A stretch of DNA of 64,000 nucleotides. Source: an uncultured Bacteroidales bacterium. GTDB taxonomy: Bacteria > Bacteroidota > Bacteroidia > Bacteroidales > FEN-979. Positions 55,872 through 64,000 of this stretch are shown piece by piece. The notes beneath the pieces were generated by a model, which was given only the letters and a program-made list of their open reading frames with translations, did no database searches and was not told the DNA's origin. The stretch's first letter is position 1. Every line of letters begins with the position of its first letter. The translations under genes and the position numbers were made by a program. Location of the stretch: positions 124,001 to 188,000 of the forward strand of contig CAISRB010000011.1 in the NCBI GenBank assembly GCA_903887775.1, given 5' to 3'.

Positions 55872-56513
55872 TTACTTAAATCGTTCGTCGTTTTTCTTTG
55901 CGAAAAATGCGACCTTTTCGAGGGAAGTGATCATGTCGTATTCTTCGAGATATACATAGGCAGGAACATTCAGGGGTTTTGGGGTGTAATTGAGAATTCC
56001 TTTGATCCCCGACAGCACAAGGGCTTCGGCAATTTCAGGGGCCTGTTCGGCTGGTACCGTGATAATCCCGATCGAGATATTATTCTGTTTGATAATTTCG
56101 GTCATCTGGTTGATGTGGTAACAGGGAACTCCGTCAAACACCCTGTTGATCTTTTCCGGATTGACGTCAAAGGCTGCGATCATACTCAGTTTGGAACGTT
56201 TTCCCTTAAAATAAGAGATAAATGCCTTGCCCAGGTTTCCAAGCCCCACAACAGCCACCCGCTGCCCGCGTTCCGAATCAATGATCTTGCCAATAAGCTC
56301 TATAAGTTCCTTGATGTCATAACCTTTTCTAAGGTTGCCCGAATAGCCTATCAGCATCAGGTCCCGCCTCACCTGTACCGGCGTAATATGCAGCATTTGA
56401 GCGATCTCATGTGAAAACACATGGGTCTTATCTTTCGATAATATCATCAGGAGAGCGCGACGGTACTGGCTAAGACGTTCGACAGTCTTGTGGGGTAGGT
56501 TTTTTATGAACAT
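55872..56513 (-). CDS. rex: Redox-sensing transcriptional repressor Rex
   Basis: 213 residues. N-terminal winged helix (TVERLSQYRRALLMIL, SHEIAQMLHITPVQVRRDLMLIGYSGNLRKGYDI) and a C-terminal Rossmann domain with VAVVGLGNLGKAF. Rex dimers bind DNA when NAD+ dominates and release it when NADH rises, derepressing fermentation and hydrogenase genes. Its start overlaps the receiver-kinase gene by 10 bases. Rex-like sites at 57636-57653 (autoregulatory position) and 30311-30328 are candidates in this window. Confidence 0.95.
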   Translation of the reverse strand: MFIKNLPHKTVERLSQYRRALLMILSKDKTHVFSHEIAQMLHITPVQVRRDLMLIGYSGNLRKGYDIKELIELIGKIIDSERGQRVAVVGLGNLGKAFISYFKGKRSKLSMIAAFDVNPEKINRVFDGVPCYHINQMTEIIKQNNISIGIITVPAEQAPEIAEALVLSGIKGILNYTPKPLNVPAYVYLEEYDMITSLEKVAFFAKKNDERFK

Positions 56514-57637
56514 GGTTTATTTATTGGAAGTTTGACTTTGAATATACTGCCCTTGTCCGGCTCACTTGTGACTTCGATTTCCCCTTTATAGCTGTCGATC
56601 AGCTTCTTTACAATGGAGAGTCCCAGACCACTGCCGGATATATTTTTGGTTTTTTCGGTTTTAATCCTTACGAAATCATCGAAAATCCTGCTGCTATCCT
56701 CAGCGGTCATACCGATTCCCGTATCTTCAACCAGGATCTCAACGCAGTTTTCATTCCTGCTCAGCGTACAATCTACTGAACCGCCTTCCCTGTTGTATTT
56801 TATTGCATTACTGATGAGGTTGTTGAAAATGATCTCCATTTCCTCGCTGTCGGCCATGACAGTTATGGTATCATTCCCATGAAGGTTCAGCCTGATGTCC
56901 TTCTGTATCGAATATGGCCGCATGGTGTCGATGGCTGTATGTGCAACATCTACCAGGTTAACCTCTTTAATATCGCGTTTTCCCTTGCCCGACTCAACTC
57001 TTGTGAGGTCAAGAAGGTCAAGGATCAGCATTCTCATACCCTTGATCCTCTGTAACATACGGTCAACCATGTAGTCGTAACTTTCAAGCTGTGGACCTGC
57101 CTGCCGTTCCCTGATCATCTGAAGGTATCCTTCAATTGAATTCAGGGGTGCTTTGAGTTCATGTGAAAGAACGCTCAGGAACTGAAACCTGATCTGCTTC
57201 CCGGTTTCCTGAAGTTTGTTCGTCATTTTCTTCAGGAATACCCTTTTCGTGATGTTCTCGATCGAAGATTTCAGTTCCTGGGGGGTAAATGGTTTGGGAA
57301 TGAAATCGTAAGCCCCGTCGCTCGTGGCTTTCACTGCAAGTTCAAGAGATGCGTAGGATGTGATCATCACCACAATGATGTTCATCTGCTTTTTACGGAC
57401 ATATTCGAGCACTTCGACCCCTTGTATGCCCGGCAGTTTATTGTCGAGAAGCAGGATATCGGGTTTGTCATTTTCAATGGATTCAATCCCGGCCTCTCCG
57501 GTGGAAGCTTCACGGACCTCAAAGTCGAAGGCCTCTTCCATGAAAGGATAATCCACTCTGAAGTTACGGAGAATACGACTTATCCCGCTCCTGATGCCGG
57601 GCTCATCATCGATGACAAGAATTTTCAGAGTAGACAT
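56504..57637 (-). CDS. Receiver-histidine kinase (REC-HisKA-HATPase)
   Basis: 377 residues, cytosolic. The receiver has D10, D11 and phospho-acceptor D65 (LLLDNKLPG) with an insertion after the first helix. HisKA has its histidine in VLSHELKAPLN (about residue 160), and the ATPase has N box NNLISNAIKYN, G1 DTGIGM and G2 GSGLGLSI. An N-terminal receiver lets another kinase control it, plausibly the hydrogenase-like kinase encoded upstream. It has its own -7 box, with a Rex-like operator over the start codon. Confidence 0.88.
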   Translation of the reverse strand: MSTLKILVIDDEPGIRSGISRILRNFRVDYPFMEEAFDFEVREASTGEAGIESIENDKPDILLLDNKLPGIQGVEVLEYVRKKQMNIIVVMITSYASLELAVKATSDGAYDFIPKPFTPQELKSSIENITKRVFLKKMTNKLQETGKQIRFQFLSVLSHELKAPLNSIEGYLQMIRERQAGPQLESYDYMVDRMLQRIKGMRMLILDLLDLTRVESGKGKRDIKEVNLVDVAHTAIDTMRPYSIQKDIRLNLHGNDTITVMADSEEMEIIFNNLISNAIKYNREGGSVDCTLSRNENCVEILVEDTGIGMTAEDSSRIFDDFVRIKTEKTKNISGSGLGLSIVKKLIDSYKGEIEVTSEPDKGSIFKVKLPINKPCS

Positions 57638-57653
57638 GTTAATAAAATCACAA
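57636..57653. promoter_or_regulatory. Rex-like operator at the receiver-kinase/rex promoter
   Basis: The plus strand reads ATGTTAA-TAAA-ATCACAA. Against TTGTTAA/TTGTGAA-N4-TTCACAA/TTAACAA each half agrees at 6 of 7 bases. It begins in the start codon and lies between the ATG and the -7 box at 57657-57664, where bound Rex would block transcription of its own operon. Confidence 0.5.
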
Positions 57654-57656
57654 CAA

Positions 57657-57664
57657 CAAAAATA
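57657..57664 (-). promoter_or_regulatory. -7 box of the receiver-kinase/rex operon
   Basis: The minus strand reads TATTTTTG, matching TAnnTTTG, 20 bases upstream of the ATG at 57637. The Rex-like site lies directly downstream. Confidence 0.5.
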
Positions 57665-57688
57665 ATGTAAAAAAAGTGAACTTTAACA

Positions 57689-58087
57689 TCATCTGTTAAT
57701 TTTTAACAGCTGGTCTATTTCCTCTTTGAGTTTTTCCGACCTGATCCCCTTGTCAAGAAAACGATCGGCCCTGATCCATTTTCTGTTATTCTCATCGTTG
57801 ATGTCAAAAGTGATCCCGGTTTCCGCTGCAACTCCTGTTGCAATGATGATAGGAACATCGGGATATTTTTTCTTCATTTTATAACATAGAATAAACCCGC
57901 TGTCCTCGTTTTCCATCATCAGGTCAAGGATAGCAATATCAGGTTTGATCTTTTCAATCAGTTCCTCAGCTTCTTTCTGGCTTTCGGCAAGCAAAATCTG
58001 GAAGCCGAAAGACTCAAGCCGGTTTTTCATCTGGTAGAGATAATCCTGGTCATCGTCCACGATGAGGATTGTTTTCTTTGTGGTCAT
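57689..58087 (-). CDS. Single-domain response regulator
   Basis: 132 residues: one receiver domain with D11, D12 and D13, phospho-acceptor D55 (ILDLMMEN), a threonine in IIATGV and a lysine in FLDKGIRS. There is no output domain, so it likely relays phosphate or binds a partner protein. It lies downstream of the hydrogenase-like histidine kinase, separated by a repeat array, and upstream of the receiver-kinase, fitting a phosphorelay. Confidence 0.88.
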   Translation of the reverse strand: MTTKKTILIVDDDQDYLYQMKNRLESFGFQILLAESQKEAEELIEKIKPDIAILDLMMENEDSGFILCYKMKKKYPDVPIIIATGVAAETGITFDINDENNRKWIRADRFLDKGIRSEKLKEEIDQLLKINR

Positions 58088-58100
58088 ACAATTAACTATT

Positions 58101-58177
58101 ATAAGCGAAAAGCGAGTAGCGAAAAGCGAAATAAAATCAAACTAAATTTCGCTTCTCGCCTTTCGCCTTTCGCTTTT
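58101..58177. repeat. Heptamer repeat array with facing arms (array 9)
   Basis: Left arm AAGCGAAAAGCGAGTAGCG... (58101-58131) and right arm TTTCGCTTCTCGCC... (58146-58177), loop about 14 bases. It fills most of the gap between the hydrogenase-like kinase stop and the response-regulator start. It may end or stabilise the long hydrogenase message. Confidence 0.85.
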
Positions 58178-58189
58178 TGTTATACATTT

Positions 58190-60169
58190 TCATACTCTTG
58201 GCAATGTAATTGTAAATGTCGTCCCTGTCGTCCCTGCCGAAGGATCATTATTTGAATCGACATGTATCTTCCCTTTATGCATTTTTACAATTCCGTAGAT
58301 CAGGGCCAGTCCAAGCCCGGTGCCTTTTCCCATTTCCTTCGTCGTGAAAAAAGGAGTGAAAATTTTATCCATATGTTCTTTCGATATCCCTGTTCCGGTA
58401 TCGGTGATGATAAACCGGATCTCTTCCTCATCTCCATCGACACCAATGGTGAGTATTCCTCCACCCGGCATAGCATCGACAGCGTTTTTCTCAAGGTTTG
58501 TAAGCACCTGCATCATCTGGTCTATATCAAGCCTCGCCTGGGGATTGGCAATTGAAGGTTCGAACACAACCTTTATATTTTCAGGCTTGATAATGGAATC
58601 TATACTATGCCTCGTAAATTTCACAATGTCGGTCTCGCTCAGAGTAACCTGGTTTTTTCTCGCGAAGTTCAGAAGTCCGCTCACGATCTTTTTACAGCGT
58701 TCTGCCTGTTCGGCAATTAGTTTCAGGTCATCCCTCACAGGATCGTTTTCAGGTGATTCGTCAATCAGTATGTTTGAATACATCGTGATGACTCCCAACG
58801 GATTATTCAGTTCATGAGCGATCCCGGCCGAAAGTTGCCCCATGTGAGCCAGCTTTTCCGATTGTTTCAGCGCCTGCTTGGCCCTGGCAAGTTTTTCGTT
58901 TGAAACGTTAAGATTTGAAATGGAATCATGCAACTTCTCGATGGTGTATGGCAGGCACATTTCTGTTTCTGCGAGGTCTTTCACAATGGCAATAGCATGT
59001 TCCACGCAGGTATCGTATCCGCAAGTGCCGCAATTCAGGTGATCCTCAGGATTGAACTTACCCATCGCATGGAGAGCTTCAATGATCTTATCTTCGGCAG
59101 GGATCTCAAAACGACGGTCCTCCGGGCTGAATTGCTGGGAGAAATCCAGGGAGCTGAATTCTTTGATCTGTTCTTCCCATTGTTGTTTATCAAGGGCAGC
59201 CAGTTTTTTGCCGGCATACTCTCCCACGGCAGCACTCCTTGCATACCTTTTACCTCCGGGGGATGTACCGGGTCCCATGATGCATCCCTCGCAGCATAAC
59301 AACATCAGATGCTTGTTCCGGATCAGGCCTTCCTCATATTCCCTTACAGCCTCCTTGAAATTCACCCTTCCCTCGGCAACGACGACTTGTTCTTCAGGAA
59401 TGGTTTCAGTGGAGTTTGCTGTGAAGTACAGGCCGCGGCTGATCGGGAAAATGGCTCCTTTGCCGCTTACCGGGGGATCAAAATCAGAAGGAACCGCATT
59501 TTGCCAGCTTAATTCCTTCTCATTGAACATTTCTCTGAGTTCCCTGAATGTAAGCACTTCATCAACCTCTTCTGATTCGGCTTTTTTGGCGAAACAGGGT
59601 CCTATGAAAACAACCTTGAGTTCTTCCCCGTATTTTTTTTTCATGATCCTGGTCATTGCAAGCATTGGCGATGCAATAGGGGCGAGGTTGTCGACCAGTT
59701 CAGGATGATATTGACGAATGAAATATACAATGGCAGGGCAATCCGAACTGATCTGGCCAATCCCTTTGCTGTTCTTTATCCGGTGTTCATATTCCCTGGC
59801 GATCATATCTGCCCCGAAGGATACCTCGGTAATGTAATCGAAACCTAACTGCCTGATCATGCCAACGAGCAAACGATGGTCGGGGATCTCGGTGAATTCG
59901 GCAGGGAAGCTGGGTGCAATACAAGCAGCTATTTTCTTCCCGGACTTCAGAAGCCCGTTCACCTCATCAATTGAGCGCAGCGGGTATTTTGCCCCCTGGC
60001 TGCATACTTTGATGCAATTTCCGCATCCTATGCATCGTTCATTGATCACCTCCGCCTGTCCATTGATTATTTTAATAGCTTTTACAGGGCACTCCCTTAC
60101 GCATGTATAGCATACGCGGCATTTATCCTTTACAGTAAAAACCAGTTGCCGGTGGTAAGCATGGTTCAT
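58190..60169 (-). CDS. Histidine kinase with ferredoxin and [FeFe]-hydrogenase-like sensory module
   Basis: 659 residues, no membrane helix. Residues 1-75: two [4Fe-4S] ferredoxin motifs (CRVCYTCVRECP, CIGCGNCIKVC). About 80-340: hydrogenase large-subunit-like domain keeping four cluster cysteines (SSDCPA, GPCFAKK, CCEGC). The proton-donor cysteine before the first is aspartate and the glycine-rich end is altered, so it is sensory, not catalytic. Next comes a C-x2-C-x4-C [4Fe-4S] motif near 379-390 (CGTCGYDTC), then a coiled coil, HisKA with H452 (AHELNNPLG) and ATPase. It overlaps the HydA-like gene by 4 bases. Likely senses hydrogen or redox state. Confidence 0.85.
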   Translation of the reverse strand: MNHAYHRQLVFTVKDKCRVCYTCVRECPVKAIKIINGQAEVINERCIGCGNCIKVCSQGAKYPLRSIDEVNGLLKSGKKIAACIAPSFPAEFTEIPDHRLLVGMIRQLGFDYITEVSFGADMIAREYEHRIKNSKGIGQISSDCPAIVYFIRQYHPELVDNLAPIASPMLAMTRIMKKKYGEELKVVFIGPCFAKKAESEEVDEVLTFRELREMFNEKELSWQNAVPSDFDPPVSGKGAIFPISRGLYFTANSTETIPEEQVVVAEGRVNFKEAVREYEEGLIRNKHLMLLCCEGCIMGPGTSPGGKRYARSAAVGEYAGKKLAALDKQQWEEQIKEFSSLDFSQQFSPEDRRFEIPAEDKIIEALHAMGKFNPEDHLNCGTCGYDTCVEHAIAIVKDLAETEMCLPYTIEKLHDSISNLNVSNEKLARAKQALKQSEKLAHMGQLSAGIAHELNNPLGVITMYSNILIDESPENDPVRDDLKLIAEQAERCKKIVSGLLNFARKNQVTLSETDIVKFTRHSIDSIIKPENIKVVFEPSIANPQARLDIDQMMQVLTNLEKNAVDAMPGGGILTIGVDGDEEEIRFIITDTGTGISKEHMDKIFTPFFTTKEMGKGTGLGLALIYGIVKMHKGKIHVDSNNDPSAGTTGTTFTITLPRV

Positions 60170-61878
60170 ATGGCGGAAGTTTTAAGTGGTGTTTTATGCA
60201 ATATTTCCTGGTTTCGCTGGCTGTTCGGGCCTGACAGGAATTTTTCAAAAAGTTCATTCACAACAGGGTTCTTGTGCGCAACTTTAACCATTTCTTCTTC
60301 ATCTATATCATACAGAGCCTTCATCCTGGACTTGAGGCATTTCTCATCCGTCCCTGTTCTCTGACCCCCCCCGTTGATGCATCCGTTCAAACAGGCCATC
60401 ACTTCAACAATATGAATGTTCTCCCTGCCGTTTGCGATTTCATCGATGAACCCAATGGCATTAGCCAGTCCGCTGACAGCGACGACATTTACAGACTGTT
60501 TGTTAATTCTCACTTTAGCTTCTTTCTTCGGTTTTAAACCCCTGAGGTCATTTATTTTTAACGGGCTCAATTCCTGTCCGCTGCTCATGAAATTGATGCT
60601 TCGGATCAAACCTTCCAGGTGCCCGCCCGAGATGCCGAACAGCCTGCCCGATGAACTGCTGATACTGAAAGCCGAATCGGCAGGTTCCGGGTCCAGGTTG
60701 CTGATATCGATCCCCAGCAGCCTGATCATCCTGATCAGCTCCCTGATGGTGATGACAGCATCAACAAGCCTGGTTTCACTACCGTTACTTTCTGCTTCAG
60801 ACTTTCCTGCCGTGCAGGGTGTGACGGAAACAACAAATACTTTCCCGGGTTTGACCCCGGCGCTGCTCGTAATATATTGTTTGATCAGTGTTCCCATGAT
60901 CTGCTGGGGCGATTTTACCGGTGACAGATATGTAGCAAACTCAGGCCTGAAGACTTCAATATATCTGACCCAGGCAGGGCAGCAGCTGGTCAACAATGGA
61001 AGCTTTGTGTTTTTTTGCAGGCGATCCAGAAACAAGGCTGCTTCTTCCATGATATTAATATCGGCTGCCATTGAGGCGTCGAAACTCTGGCGGAATCCCA
61101 TTTTCTTCAGGGCTGCCCGCAGCAGGTTCAGGATATCCTTGCTTGATTTTAATCCGAATTCTTCAGCAATGGCTGCAGGAACCGTTGGAGAAAATTGCAC
61201 AACAGGGTAAAGATCGGGATTACTGAGAGCTTCGATAACCTGCTGAATCGATTTTTTTTCTGTGAGCGCTCCTGTCGGGCAAACCATGATACATTGTCCG
61301 CACCTGACACAGGCATTGAAATTCAGTCCCCTGTTGTACGAGGTGCCTATCCTGGTATGCGACCCCCTTCCTACAGCATCGATAGCCGACACCCCGACGA
61401 TTTCCCTGCATACTCTGCTGCATCGCATGCAAAGAACACATTTTGCCGGATCTCTCTGAATTGAAGGGCAGGCTTTATCGATCTGTACAGGTTTGTTCCT
61501 GCTCATATATTTACGCTCCCTCACCTGTAGCTCTTCCGATAATTCCTGTAACTCGCAGGTCCCATTGCGGTCGCAGTAAAGGCAGTCGTCGGGATGATTG
61601 GCAAGCAGCAGTTCAACAAGAGTTTTCCTCGCTTTGAGAACCCTGGGTGAATGAGTATGTATCCGCATCCATTCCTCAACCTGGTGTGAACAGGCCGGAA
61701 CAAGATGCGAGAGACCTTCGACTTCCACGACACACATACGGCAGGCCCCGGTGGGAGAGAGGTTGCTGAGGTGGCAAAGTGTAGGCACTTTCACGCCAAT
61801 ACGGTTCAGCACTGTAAGTATGGTTTCGCCCCGTTTGGAACTGACCTGCTGGCCGTTTATTTCGATAGTAAGCAGCAT
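60166..61878 (-). CDS. [FeFe]-hydrogenase-like catalytic subunit with altered H-cluster residues (HydA/HndD type)
   Basis: 570 residues. N-terminal [2Fe-2S] domain (GACRMCVVEVEG), His-Cys cluster region (HPDDCLYCDRNGTCE), two [4Fe-4S] motifs (CVLCMRCSRVC, CVRCGQCIMVCP), then the H-domain. Motif 1 TSCCPAW has C299 and C300, motif 2 is TPCTAGKSE with C355, and motif 3 is MACLNGCINGGGQ. All four cluster cysteines are kept, but the usual M353 is T, K358 is G and E282 is L (C. pasteurianum numbering, which coincides here). Preceded by NuoF- and NuoE-like genes as in trimeric bifurcating or NAD(P)-linked hydrogenases. Activity is uncertain. Confidence 0.83.
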   Translation of the reverse strand: MLLTIEINGQQVSSKRGETILTVLNRIGVKVPTLCHLSNLSPTGACRMCVVEVEGLSHLVPACSHQVEEWMRIHTHSPRVLKARKTLVELLLANHPDDCLYCDRNGTCELQELSEELQVRERKYMSRNKPVQIDKACPSIQRDPAKCVLCMRCSRVCREIVGVSAIDAVGRGSHTRIGTSYNRGLNFNACVRCGQCIMVCPTGALTEKKSIQQVIEALSNPDLYPVVQFSPTVPAAIAEEFGLKSSKDILNLLRAALKKMGFRQSFDASMAADINIMEEAALFLDRLQKNTKLPLLTSCCPAWVRYIEVFRPEFATYLSPVKSPQQIMGTLIKQYITSSAGVKPGKVFVVSVTPCTAGKSEAESNGSETRLVDAVITIRELIRMIRLLGIDISNLDPEPADSAFSISSSSGRLFGISGGHLEGLIRSINFMSSGQELSPLKINDLRGLKPKKEAKVRINKQSVNVVAVSGLANAIGFIDEIANGRENIHIVEVMACLNGCINGGGQRTGTDEKCLKSRMKALYDIDEEEMVKVAHKNPVVNELFEKFLSGPNSQRNQEILHKTPLKTSAI

Positions 61879-61886
61879 AATTCCTG

Positions 61887-63836
61887 TTATTTGAAAAAGA
61901 TTGCACTGAATTTGCAGGCATCAAAGCAGATCGCACAGCCGGTGCATTTGGATTCAATAATGAAATGAGGCATCTTAAGAGAACCCACAATCGCGTTCTC
62001 AGGGCATTTTTTCTGGCAAATATTACAGCCGTTACAAAGATCGACATCGATATAAAAGCTGCGCAGGTCATGGCAGACTCCTGCTGAGCATTTACGGTCG
62101 AAAATATGTTCTTCAAATTCCTCCCTGAACCACTTGAGTGAACTCAGGACCGGGTTGGGTGCATTCCGTCCCAGGCCGCAAAGCGAAGTGTCACGGATGA
62201 CACTGGCAAGGTTTTCAAGCTGAACCACTCCTTTGAAGCGTTCAAGAGTCTCATGCGTGGATTCTTCTTTAGGCCTTTTTGTAATACCCTCCAGTATATC
62301 GAGCATCTTGCTTGTACCCTCCCTGCATGGGATGCATTTACCACAACTCTCATTCTGCAGAAACTCAATGAAATACCTTGCAAGGTTTACCATGCAGGTC
62401 TTATCGTCAAGGATGATGAGCCCTCCAAGACCGAGGTTGACCCCTTTATCAGACAGTGCTTCGTAATCTAGAGGAGTTTCCAGATCAGCAGGGGGAATGC
62501 ATACCCCTGATGGCCCTCCGAGCTGAACAGCCTTTAATGCCCTGCCATCTTTCACTCCCCCGGCAATCTGGCTGATGATTGTTGAAAAAGTGAGACCCAT
62601 CGGGACTTCGATAAACCCGGTATAAACAGATTTTCCTGCTATTGAAAATAATTTCGTGCCTTTTGAGTATTTGGTTCCAACAGCTTTGAACCATCCCGGA
62701 CCGTTCTCAAGGATACCCGGGACATTGGCAAGGGTTTCTACATTATTGATCACGGTCGGGTGTTCCCAAAGGCCTTTCTCGGCGGGAAAAGGAGGTTTCG
62801 ACCTGGGTAACCCTCGCTGACCCTCAAGGCTCGAAAGTAAGGCCGTTTCTTCTCCACACACAAAAGCGCCGGCTCCCTGCCTGATGCTGACCGAAAGATT
62901 AAATCCGCTCCCAAAGATATCTTCCCCGATCATGCCATAATCTTTTGCCTGCCCTATGGCCTGTTCAAGTATTTTCAAGGAGTTCTCATAGTCAGTCCTG
63001 ACATAGATTATCGCCTGGCTCGCTCCGATTGCATAGGCAGCAATGGCTATGCCTTCAATTACCCGGTGAGGGTCGCTTTCAATTACAGCCCGGTCCATGA
63101 ATGCCCCGGGATCACTCTCGTCGGCGTTGCAGATCATGAATTTCTGGTCTCCTGCAGTATCAAGGGCCACTTTCCATTTTTTGCCTGTCGGATATCCGCC
63201 GCCTCCGCGCCCCCTTAACTCACTCTGTTCAATGATTTCGCAGATCTTATCAGCCGGGTAATTCAAAACAGTCTTGTAAAGCGATTTATATCCGCCTCTT
63301 ACAATATAATCCTCAATGGATGCCGGACTGATAATACCGGCATTTTTTAATATATGCCTTCTTTGGAGGCTGAACCAGGAAATCTGCTCAAGCATTGGAA
63401 TGTTCGGCCATTCCTCAAGGCCATCCTGTTTATATTGCCCAAGAATGTGATCATCCGGCAAAGTATGGTGAAACACCGAATTCAGTATATCTTCAACTTT
63501 ATCCTCTGTCACATTCCGGAAAGATAAGCGGGTTTTACCCGGCAACTGAATGTCGAGAAGGGGCTCGGCGGAACAAAATCCGGTGCAGCCAACCTCGATA
63601 ATGTCGGCACTGAACCTGGCTTCGGAGAGATAGCTGTTAATTTTCCCGAGGGTGGCTTTAGCTCCTGAAATACTACCGGAGGTTCCTGTTCCCAGGTATA
63701 TTACCGGCCTTGAGATTTTATCTCGCCTGATCACGGCAACTCTTTCGGTTGTTGAAGCATCAAAAATCCCGGAATAATTCTTGATGACTTTCTCGACCAG
63801 GAACGCTCTGTTGTCTGTTATAGCTTGTGTTGGCAT
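61887..63836 (-). CDS. NuoF-like flavin/Fe-S subunit of the hydrogenase-type complex (HydB/HndC)
   Basis: 649 residues. An N-terminal thioredoxin-like domain is followed by the NuoF core: RGRGGGGYPTGKKW (FMN/NAD site), NADESDPGAFMDR, GAGAFVCGEETALLSSLEGQRG, and cluster N3 in ESCGKCIPCREG. Two C-terminal [4Fe-4S] motifs (CNGCNICQKKCP, CTGCAICFDAC) follow. It would oxidise or reduce NAD(P)H for the complex. In the N-terminal domain only the second cysteine pair (GCTGFC) remains; the first two positions are Tyr47 and Thr52, so that [2Fe-2S] cluster is probably absent. It is 8 bases upstream of the HydA-like gene. Confidence 0.87.
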   Translation of the reverse strand: MPTQAITDNRAFLVEKVIKNYSGIFDASTTERVAVIRRDKISRPVIYLGTGTSGSISGAKATLGKINSYLSEARFSADIIEVGCTGFCSAEPLLDIQLPGKTRLSFRNVTEDKVEDILNSVFHHTLPDDHILGQYKQDGLEEWPNIPMLEQISWFSLQRRHILKNAGIISPASIEDYIVRGGYKSLYKTVLNYPADKICEIIEQSELRGRGGGGYPTGKKWKVALDTAGDQKFMICNADESDPGAFMDRAVIESDPHRVIEGIAIAAYAIGASQAIIYVRTDYENSLKILEQAIGQAKDYGMIGEDIFGSGFNLSVSIRQGAGAFVCGEETALLSSLEGQRGLPRSKPPFPAEKGLWEHPTVINNVETLANVPGILENGPGWFKAVGTKYSKGTKLFSIAGKSVYTGFIEVPMGLTFSTIISQIAGGVKDGRALKAVQLGGPSGVCIPPADLETPLDYEALSDKGVNLGLGGLIILDDKTCMVNLARYFIEFLQNESCGKCIPCREGTSKMLDILEGITKRPKEESTHETLERFKGVVQLENLASVIRDTSLCGLGRNAPNPVLSSLKWFREEFEEHIFDRKCSAGVCHDLRSFYIDVDLCNGCNICQKKCPENAIVGSLKMPHFIIESKCTGCAICFDACKFSAIFFK

Positions 63837-63837
63837 G

Positions 63838-64000
63838 TTACTCGGTTTTTTCCCTTAGTGAACGGATCAGCGTATGCAGCTCAGCCAAACTCAGGTGATG
63901 ATAAGTTTTATCGTTGATCCTGATCACAGGAGACTGGCTACATCCACCCATGCAACTCACTGTTTCAAAACTGAACTTCTTATCCCTGCTCAGGGAACCA
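63838..64000 (-). CDS. NuoE-like [2Fe-2S] subunit (HydC/HndA), C-terminal fragment
   Basis: The frame runs from the right window edge to TAA at 63838-63840, giving the last 53 residues. VSCMGGCSQSPVIRINDKTYHHL holds the second cysteine pair of the thioredoxin-like [2Fe-2S] domain of NuoE. The stop lies one base before the next gene's ATG, so the three subunits are co-translated as in trimeric [FeFe]-hydrogenases. The N-terminal half is outside the window. Confidence 0.85.
   Translation of the reverse strand, partial: GSLSRDKKFSFETVSCMGGCSQSPVIRINDKTYHHLSLAELHTLIRSLREKTE

Follow-up and report, generated by a model that had tools for sequence, protein, structure and literature searches.

What does a cell gain from encoding a complete hydrogenase-type complex in one block with a hydrogenase-derived histidine kinase, two receiver proteins and the repressor Rex? 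The question is raised by the right end of the window, by which we mean the whole 64,000-nucleotide stretch of an uncultured Bacteroidales bacterium (assembly GCA_903887775.1, contig CAISRB010000011.1, positions 124,001 to 188,000), where these genes follow one another on the minus strand. Judging from sequence comparisons, the seven-gene block probably serves to sense hydrogen and the redox state of the cell itself. We consider it reasonably probable that it forms a Rex-controlled hydrogen/redox signalling operon and that its HydABC complex, in the clade of the window, is drifting from an enzyme to an iron-sulfur companion of the sensor. Matches to Pfam and NCBIfam models give, in minus-strand order, NuoE, HydB, HydA, the histidine kinase, a lone receiver, a receiver-kinase and Rex:

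63838-64000, minus strand: C-terminal end of NuoE/HydC, thioredoxin-like [2Fe-2S] (Pfam 2Fe-2S_thioredx, E 6.1e-46)
61887-63836, minus strand: HydB/NuoF-like subunit, 649 amino acids (aa)
60166-61878, minus strand: HydA, 570 aa, nearest to group A6 [FeFe]-hydrogenases but under the cut-off of that group
58190-60169, minus strand: group-C-type sensor kinase, 659 aa, with Fer4, Fe_hyd_lg_C, FeS, HisKA and HATPase domains
57689-58087, minus strand: lone receiver, 132 aa, with D55
56504-57637, minus strand: receiver (D65)-HisKA (H159)-HATPase kinase, 377 aa
55872-56513, minus strand: Rex redox-sensing repressor, 213 aa

These matches bear out the gene content and strand given in a first-pass annotation of the window, with every gene where it had been described. 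The block had been started at 56504, a limit that has to be moved, as Rex lies mostly below it. The NuoE-NuoF-HydA-like complex was right as to its genes, but NuoE is a separate gene, mostly past the right edge of the window (we read it whole in the own genome, L007:8838-9290), and HydB has an N-terminal [2Fe-2S]-type domain of its own in addition to the FMN/NADH domain, an N3-type cluster and two C-terminal [4Fe-4S] clusters.

To follow the gene order across genomes, as the first-pass annotation had proposed, we searched the input half of the kinase against 149 relatives, 96 of which matched at E <= 1e-20, paralogues included. Regions were fetched from 67 of these 96 (G003 in fragments) and from the own genome, leaving out relatives with only weaker or paralogous matches and the partial G103; a further 80 named loci come from among the matches listed in one scan, five of them (L106-L109 and L121) duplicating loci already in the relatives' set. 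Neighbouring genes were called from open reading frames (ORFs) and blastp or from hidden Markov models built on the families. The order proved to be widely kept: of the 43 loci from the window's own order that have both flanks, 40 have all five partners (NuoE, HydB, HydA, receiver and receiver-kinase) around the kinase, as do 37 of the 42 such named loci, again among the matches listed. Rex is additionally present in 29 of those 40 and 23 of those 37. It comes last in Bacteroidales. In several other phyla, going by the record titles, it comes first (Planctomycetes, Neomarinimicrobiota, Acidobacteria, Myxococcota, Elusimicrobia, Deltaproteobacteria, Lentisphaerae, Kiritimatiellota and Chitinispirillaceae). 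The full set had been singled out as unusual in a bacteroidote; it is not a bacteroidote oddity, because by record title it recurs in many other phyla. Nearly all these loci come from metagenome bins, so an individual title may be mistaken. Exceptions to the order are L072, which has no visible NuoE, and L159, whose NuoE falls just past the distance limit; L148, L167, L176 and L181 are without HydABC, and L148 and L167 also without the receiver.

Several variants of the layout were seen along the way. In the Bacteroidales clade without Rex, the operon is preceded by an additional lone receiver (about 165 aa; L052:4200-4697), and L119 (2172-4753) has before it a kinase plus a response regulator whose end looks, by eye, like a helix-turn-helix; both are possible candidates for the output of the system. 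Some Rex-first loci (L135, L140, L152, L161) have HydB frames of 1085-1091 aa against the usual 650 and carry the receiver between HydA and the kinase. Ignavibacteria and their relatives (L168, L169, L174-L176, L179, L181) have a second NuoE-HydB-HydA operon after the receiver-kinase.

The kinase is a single protein in which PF02906 (residues 78-300) is joined to HisKA (443-506) and HATPase (548-658), the combination expected of kinase-linked group C. A kinase without iron-sulfur clusters was one of the findings that, by the first-pass annotation, would have spoken against its reading; every ligand cysteine (17, 20, 23, 27, 46, 49, 52, 56, 144, 192, 293, 296, 380, 383, 388 and 405) is kept in 140 of 140 kinases. 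The N-terminal half carries two [4Fe-4S] motifs, and the third Fe-S motif that had been proposed is real and equally invariant, reading C380-x2-C383-x4-C388-x16-C405. Hydrogenase positions are given below in CpI numbering, in which K358 is an important residue of the H2 site. The kinase has the H-cluster ligands C144, C192, C293 and C296 and a Lys equivalent to K358 (140/140), the H site looked for in an H2 sensor, while the equivalent of M353 is Gly in all 140. C299 is not conserved (D in 87 kinases, T in 20, S in 19, A in 6, P in 4 and N in 4; mostly Thr, Ser or Ala in other phyla), and the L3 motif reads LxCxGC, with CxxC spacing instead of the CxxxC of group A. Asp at 299 is the sole replacement that prototypical enzymes are reported to tolerate (PMC10055695), and the Cx2Cx4Cx16C C-terminal motif is stated for the M2f (C) and M2e (D) types (PMC8163306). 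By domains and motifs, the protein belongs with the group C sensory [FeFe]-hydrogenases; its subgroup may be C1 or C3, labels that overlap: some kinase-bearing forms are filed under C3, while the best-matching HydDB C1 entry has no HATPase (PMC11406978).

Moreover, the relay residues named in the first-pass annotation are fixed across the family: all 140 kinases have H452, all 124 lone receivers have D55, and all 125 receiver-kinases have D65 and share H159 as well. An AlphaFold2 model of the kinase, built on a 54-sequence alignment (mean pLDDT 84, pTM 0.62), places one helix (406-471) straight after C405 and H452 on it, and Foldseek pairs one half of the protein with [FeFe]-hydrogenases and the other with the kinase ZraS. 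Of the maturases, the search covered HydF, which is encoded.

The last gene of the block has both parts of a Rex protein, the winged-helix N-terminus (PF06971) and the NAD-binding domain (PF02629), scores 202.6 bits on NF003995 against a cut-off of 126, and its glycine-rich loop is kept in 62 of 62 sequences. We looked for operators with a Rex-box pattern relaxed at two positions (TTGTnAnnnnnnTnACAA). After 116 loci had been scanned in an exploratory way, sites with at most one mismatch were counted by class in the 400 nt before NuoE. Such palindromes occur upstream of NuoE in 41 of the 56 Rex-last loci, where 30 dinucleotide shuffles gave a mean of 2.7 and a maximum of 7, in 1 of 28 Rex-less loci (1.1 expected) and in none of 16 Rex-first loci. 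The Rex-first loci have them upstream of Rex, in 7 of 16 (0.5 expected; L149 is counted, its Rex being on the opposite strand). A control stretch within HydB gave 1 of 57, and without the five duplicate loci the figures are 38/52 for Rex-last and 1/27 for Rex-less. These sites ahead of the operon favour the part that the first-pass annotation had given to Rex; its interpretation as a whole is partly supported. In the own genome, a one-mismatch site lies between NuoE and a divergent PAS-type sensor gene, in the promoter region that they share. A published Rex consensus is quoted in PMC5317091.

Taken together, these features suggest the following route. A HydABC-type, NADH-linked complex would be co-produced with a soluble group C sensor kinase, whose H-cluster-type domain may react with H2 or with electrons from its own Fe-S chain. 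The signal would pass the Cx2Cx4Cx16C cluster, the last ligand of which, C405, directly precedes the long signalling helix, and would reach H452, from where the phosphate could go to D55 of the lone receiver, to D65 of the receiver-kinase or to both, with the receivers acting on targets presumably encoded elsewhere. Rex would repress the operon at low NADH, so that sensor and complex would be made when reducing power is in excess. The sequences themselves establish the gene order, the domains, the fixed residues, the Rex-box-like sites and the pattern of losses in HydA; we infer H2 as the signal, the phosphotransfer, the binding of Rex and its direction, and the companion role of HydABC.

Some observations weigh against this picture. 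Rex was not seen in the fetched flanks of one Bacteroidales clade and of Ignavibacteria, and in L062 and L069 the kinase has none of the five partners beside it. Counts of the Rex pattern in the own genome are modestly above chance (4 against 0.92 in L007, 4 against 0.97 in L008). Pfam finds no output or DNA-binding domain in either receiver protein, and residues 430-449 of the modelled helix have a pLDDT below 50. Our literature search found no experiment demonstrating H2 sensing by such a kinase, and a study of Hydrogenedentota could barely detect H-cluster motifs in C1 proteins and left open whether these sense H2 (PMC11406978); the CxxC spacing of L3 may explain the poor motif detection in those proteins.

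The HydA subunit of the window is not fully canonical, a point absent from the first-pass annotation: the H-cluster cysteines are kept and C299 is present (TSCCPAW), but M353 and K358 of the MPCxAKK motif are replaced by Thr and Gly (TPCTAGKSE). Five congeners have ATG at 353 and AAA or AAG at 358, reading MPCTAKK or MPCTSKK, where the window has GGA at codon 358. We rejected a pseudogene or sequencing error as the source of the K358 change, given the intact frame, the two base changes in the codon and the low dN/dS (rough values against the five congeners are 0.05-0.09 for HydA and 0.01-0.02 for Rex, with dS near saturation; for several other operon genes the ratio was not computable). One rival account is that of an ordinary NADH-dependent bifurcating HydABC accompanied by a sensor and Rex, in which the changes are tolerated and the enzyme still handles H2. 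We hold this to be quite possible, though on balance not probable. It agrees with the full length of the window HydA, with all its cubane cysteines and strong purifying selection, and with the congeners' motifs; it sits poorly with a K358-to-Gly change that takes two base changes and is accompanied by M353 to Thr, and with the N-terminal cluster of HydB, which has lost one of the three family cysteines (S53) while the core cysteines are kept. Nor do the profile scores favour it. On FeFe_hydrog_A6 (NCBIfam, cut-off 765 bits) the window HydA reaches 641.6 and the operon HydA of one congener 653.9, and on the group A model (cut-off 405.95) they reach 381.1 and 388.3, so that both miss both cut-offs; two further HydA proteins from the own genome pass both, as do the operon HydA proteins from two other lineages, with A6 scores of 898, 861, 851 and 880. 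Because the congener protein misses the cut-offs with its motif intact, the operon HydA had diverged ahead of the motif change. Our literature search found no reports on K358 mutants.

Is the window a single case? We surveyed the HydA residues in 120 of 146 loci, those that passed a filter on length and internal stops. C299 is missing from 23 and K358 likewise from 23; 27 lack at least one of the two and 19 lack both (27 of 115 loci are changed when the five duplicates are excluded), and all the changed loci are Rex-last: 27 of 61, against 0 of 14 Rex-first, 0 of 31 Rex-less and 0 of 14 incomplete loci. Mapped on a quick maximum-likelihood tree of the kinase, this pattern takes no fewer than 14 changes, a count that cannot separate gain from loss. 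The ligand positions 355, 499 and 503 have Cys in every one of the 120 loci, position 300 has Cys in 100 of them and Ser in the other 20, and the changed loci retain the cluster cysteines of HydA, NuoE and the HydB core. The HydA of the window's clade thus appears repeatedly to lose residues of H2 chemistry while its Fe-S wiring stays. An ordinary hydrogenase remains in line with the 34 of 61 Rex-last loci that keep both C299 and K358, and 2 of the 27 changed loci differ merely by a tolerated residue: C299 is Asp in five changed loci, two of which (L040, L126) keep K358, and for both these reasons the HydA of those two may be active.

Persistence through neighbours offers another explanation, in which a redundant operon hydrogenase under relaxed selection is decaying towards loss and its genes persist thanks to the useful regulators alongside. 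To look for redundancy, we searched 28 chosen genomes for additional HydA, namely 14 with a changed operon copy, 13 Rex-less ones and G136, which alone represents the unchanged Rex-last genomes, so that redundancy as the cause is poorly controlled. Another HydA of at least 300 bits was present in 14 of 14 changed genomes, 13 of which have at least two, while no HydA besides the operon copy was found in 6 of the 13 Rex-less genomes; moreover, HydA and NuoE have the highest dN in the operon against the congeners. Decay would hardly spare the family-wide cluster cysteines of HydA, NuoE and the HydB core in the changed loci, nor give a dN/dS far under 1. L072 is the extreme case, with 54 bits on Fe_hyd_lg_C and eroded flavin and NADH loops, and it still has 19 of 19 HydA and 14 of 14 HydB cluster cysteines; besides, G018 and G029 have two other HydA each and an unchanged operon HydA. 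We regard decay as rather unlikely.

Compared with clusters B1-B5 of BfuB, the window HydB keeps the core cysteines, its N-terminal cluster, taken as B5, being without one Cys. Among Rex-last loci, 18 of the 26 changed ones have this cluster incomplete, compared with 4 of the 33 unchanged ones; an independent-pairs test of the association was not significant (median p 0.25, few pairs), nor was one of C299 loss against K358 loss (median p 0.25). Several changed loci also show erosion of the HydB loops for flavin and NADH, an observation that counts against BfuABC-type enzymes working on a third substrate other than H2 through an unlinked subunit. About half of the HydABC-like family is non-hydrogenase, the HydA of NiFe-HydABCSL has no H-cluster (PMC9304861), and an H-cluster-less HydA of this kind retains its wiring, all of which would suit such an enzyme; no extra catalytic subunit was seen in the operon, in a search that covered the window's own genes. 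We find it a distinctly improbable solution. Within our preferred reading, that of a signalling operon whose HydABC is becoming a companion of the sensor, the strongest form would have the complex no longer a hydrogenase at all and acting as an electron-input antenna of the kinase, shedding its H2 site, its N-terminal [2Fe-2S] cluster and, locally, its flavin/NADH site. That full form is something we put forward tentatively and think unlikely to hold as it stands. If true, a three-subunit relay from the redox pools of the cell would feed the kinase, and Rex would monitor NADH at the promoter.

Two further features lie inside the operon:

58096-58186, minus strand: palindromic repeat of a dispersed type, lying between kinase and receiver; 138 matches genome-wide
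57636-57653, strand not assigned: Rex-box-like palindrome with 1 mismatch, abutting the start of the receiver-kinase

Some genome copies of the repeat form arrays with 21-nt spacing. The Rex-box-like palindrome was considered as a site of Rex autoregulation and rejected as a general feature; it is probably incidental, because it is not conserved (2 of 63 Rex-last loci, 0.7 expected). Reading frames overlap by 4 bases at HydA/kinase and by 10 at receiver-kinase/Rex. The former overlap exists as the first-pass annotation had reported, but the physical link that was read from it does not follow as a conserved one, because the overlap, seen in 28 loci, is nearly restricted to the own family (exceptions are L042 and L153); we rejected it as a sign of obligate co-translation for the same reason. 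In Rex-last loci the distance between HydA and the kinase varies between -62 and +73 nt, in part an artefact of choosing the longest ORF.

The operon has company in its own genome. All six Fe_hyd_lg_C proteins are encoded inside 27 kb (contig C11 183270-210198), with Rex-box-like sites at three promoter regions: that of our operon, and those before a second hydrogenase operon and a third, the last without mismatch. The gene pair that diverges from NuoE and shares its promoter region, beyond the edge of the window, encodes a PAS-type sensory hydrogenase together with a SpoIIE phosphatase (L007:9534-12602) and fits the description of HydDB group C3. In 37 aligned copies of this PAS-type sensor, the K358 equivalent is present in none and 30 are without one L3 Cys, with several ligands lost in L074. 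A link between the HydA change and this neighbour is not claimed, being confounded by phylogeny. Further on come two more HydA/NuoF/NuoE operons and an epimerase-HydA fusion, a 1104-aa protein (L008:12085-15399) in which a complete HydA is fused to an NAD-dependent epimerase/dehydratase domain, as well as a putative NiFe group 3 type set. Fe_hyd_lg_C frames of 1106-1127 aa, candidates for a similar fusion, occur also in G136, G013, G018 and G029.

A recent paper called for the interaction partners of sensory [FeFe]-hydrogenases (PMC13104023). The cross-phylum gene set, the fixed relay residues and the Rex-box-like sites name candidate partners and make the question of onward signalling testable. 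If our reading holds, recurrent loss of H2 chemistry with the wiring kept would be a natural experiment in how an energy-converting enzyme becomes a signalling part.

Finally, we compared the operon with known systems. Its parts are already known. In the open-access literature, which lacks most subscription papers, neither the seven-gene set as a unit nor the recurrent HydA change was found described; the HydA change is the new point. Putative [FeFe]-hydrogenases linked to kinases are named as HydDB group C1, with H2 sensing suspected (PMC5037454), and the window kinase is like them in being group C and histidine kinase-linked. Group C genes adjoin group-A hydrogenases in Hydrogenedentota, Petrimonas and Cloacimonadota (PMC11406978, PMC7768429, PMC8542988). 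BfuT, in Hydrogenedentota sub-types IV and V, is a group C3 sensor beside BfuABC, with a histidine kinase domain in one type and its gene adjoining bfuA in some genomes; response regulators and Rex go unmentioned for it in the accessible text (PMC11406978). TmHydS and TamHydS share with the window kinase two N-terminal [4Fe-4S] clusters, an H-domain without C299, the Cx2Cx4Cx16C motif and a gene beside a group-A hydrogenase (PMC8163306, PMC10055695, PMC13104023), but TmHydS has PAS in place of the kinase and TamHydS has neither. Swol_1040 of Syntrophomonas wolfei combines histidine kinase, Fe-hydrogenase and ferredoxin domains, was detected only in butyrate-grown cells and has been proposed as a two-component regulator of H2 production (PMC4324140). 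In Caldithrix abyssi (Cabys_3675-3679) a Rex gene precedes HydABC with a Rex site 38 bp upstream, the same logic as in our Rex-first loci; a hydrogenase-derived kinase and receivers are not named in the accessible text (PMC5317091). With the bifurcating HydABC/BfuABC family, which has known H-cluster-less members (PMC9304861), the operon has the three subunits and the core clusters in common, and it differs from that family in a HydA without K358 and a HydB one N-terminal cluster Cys short.

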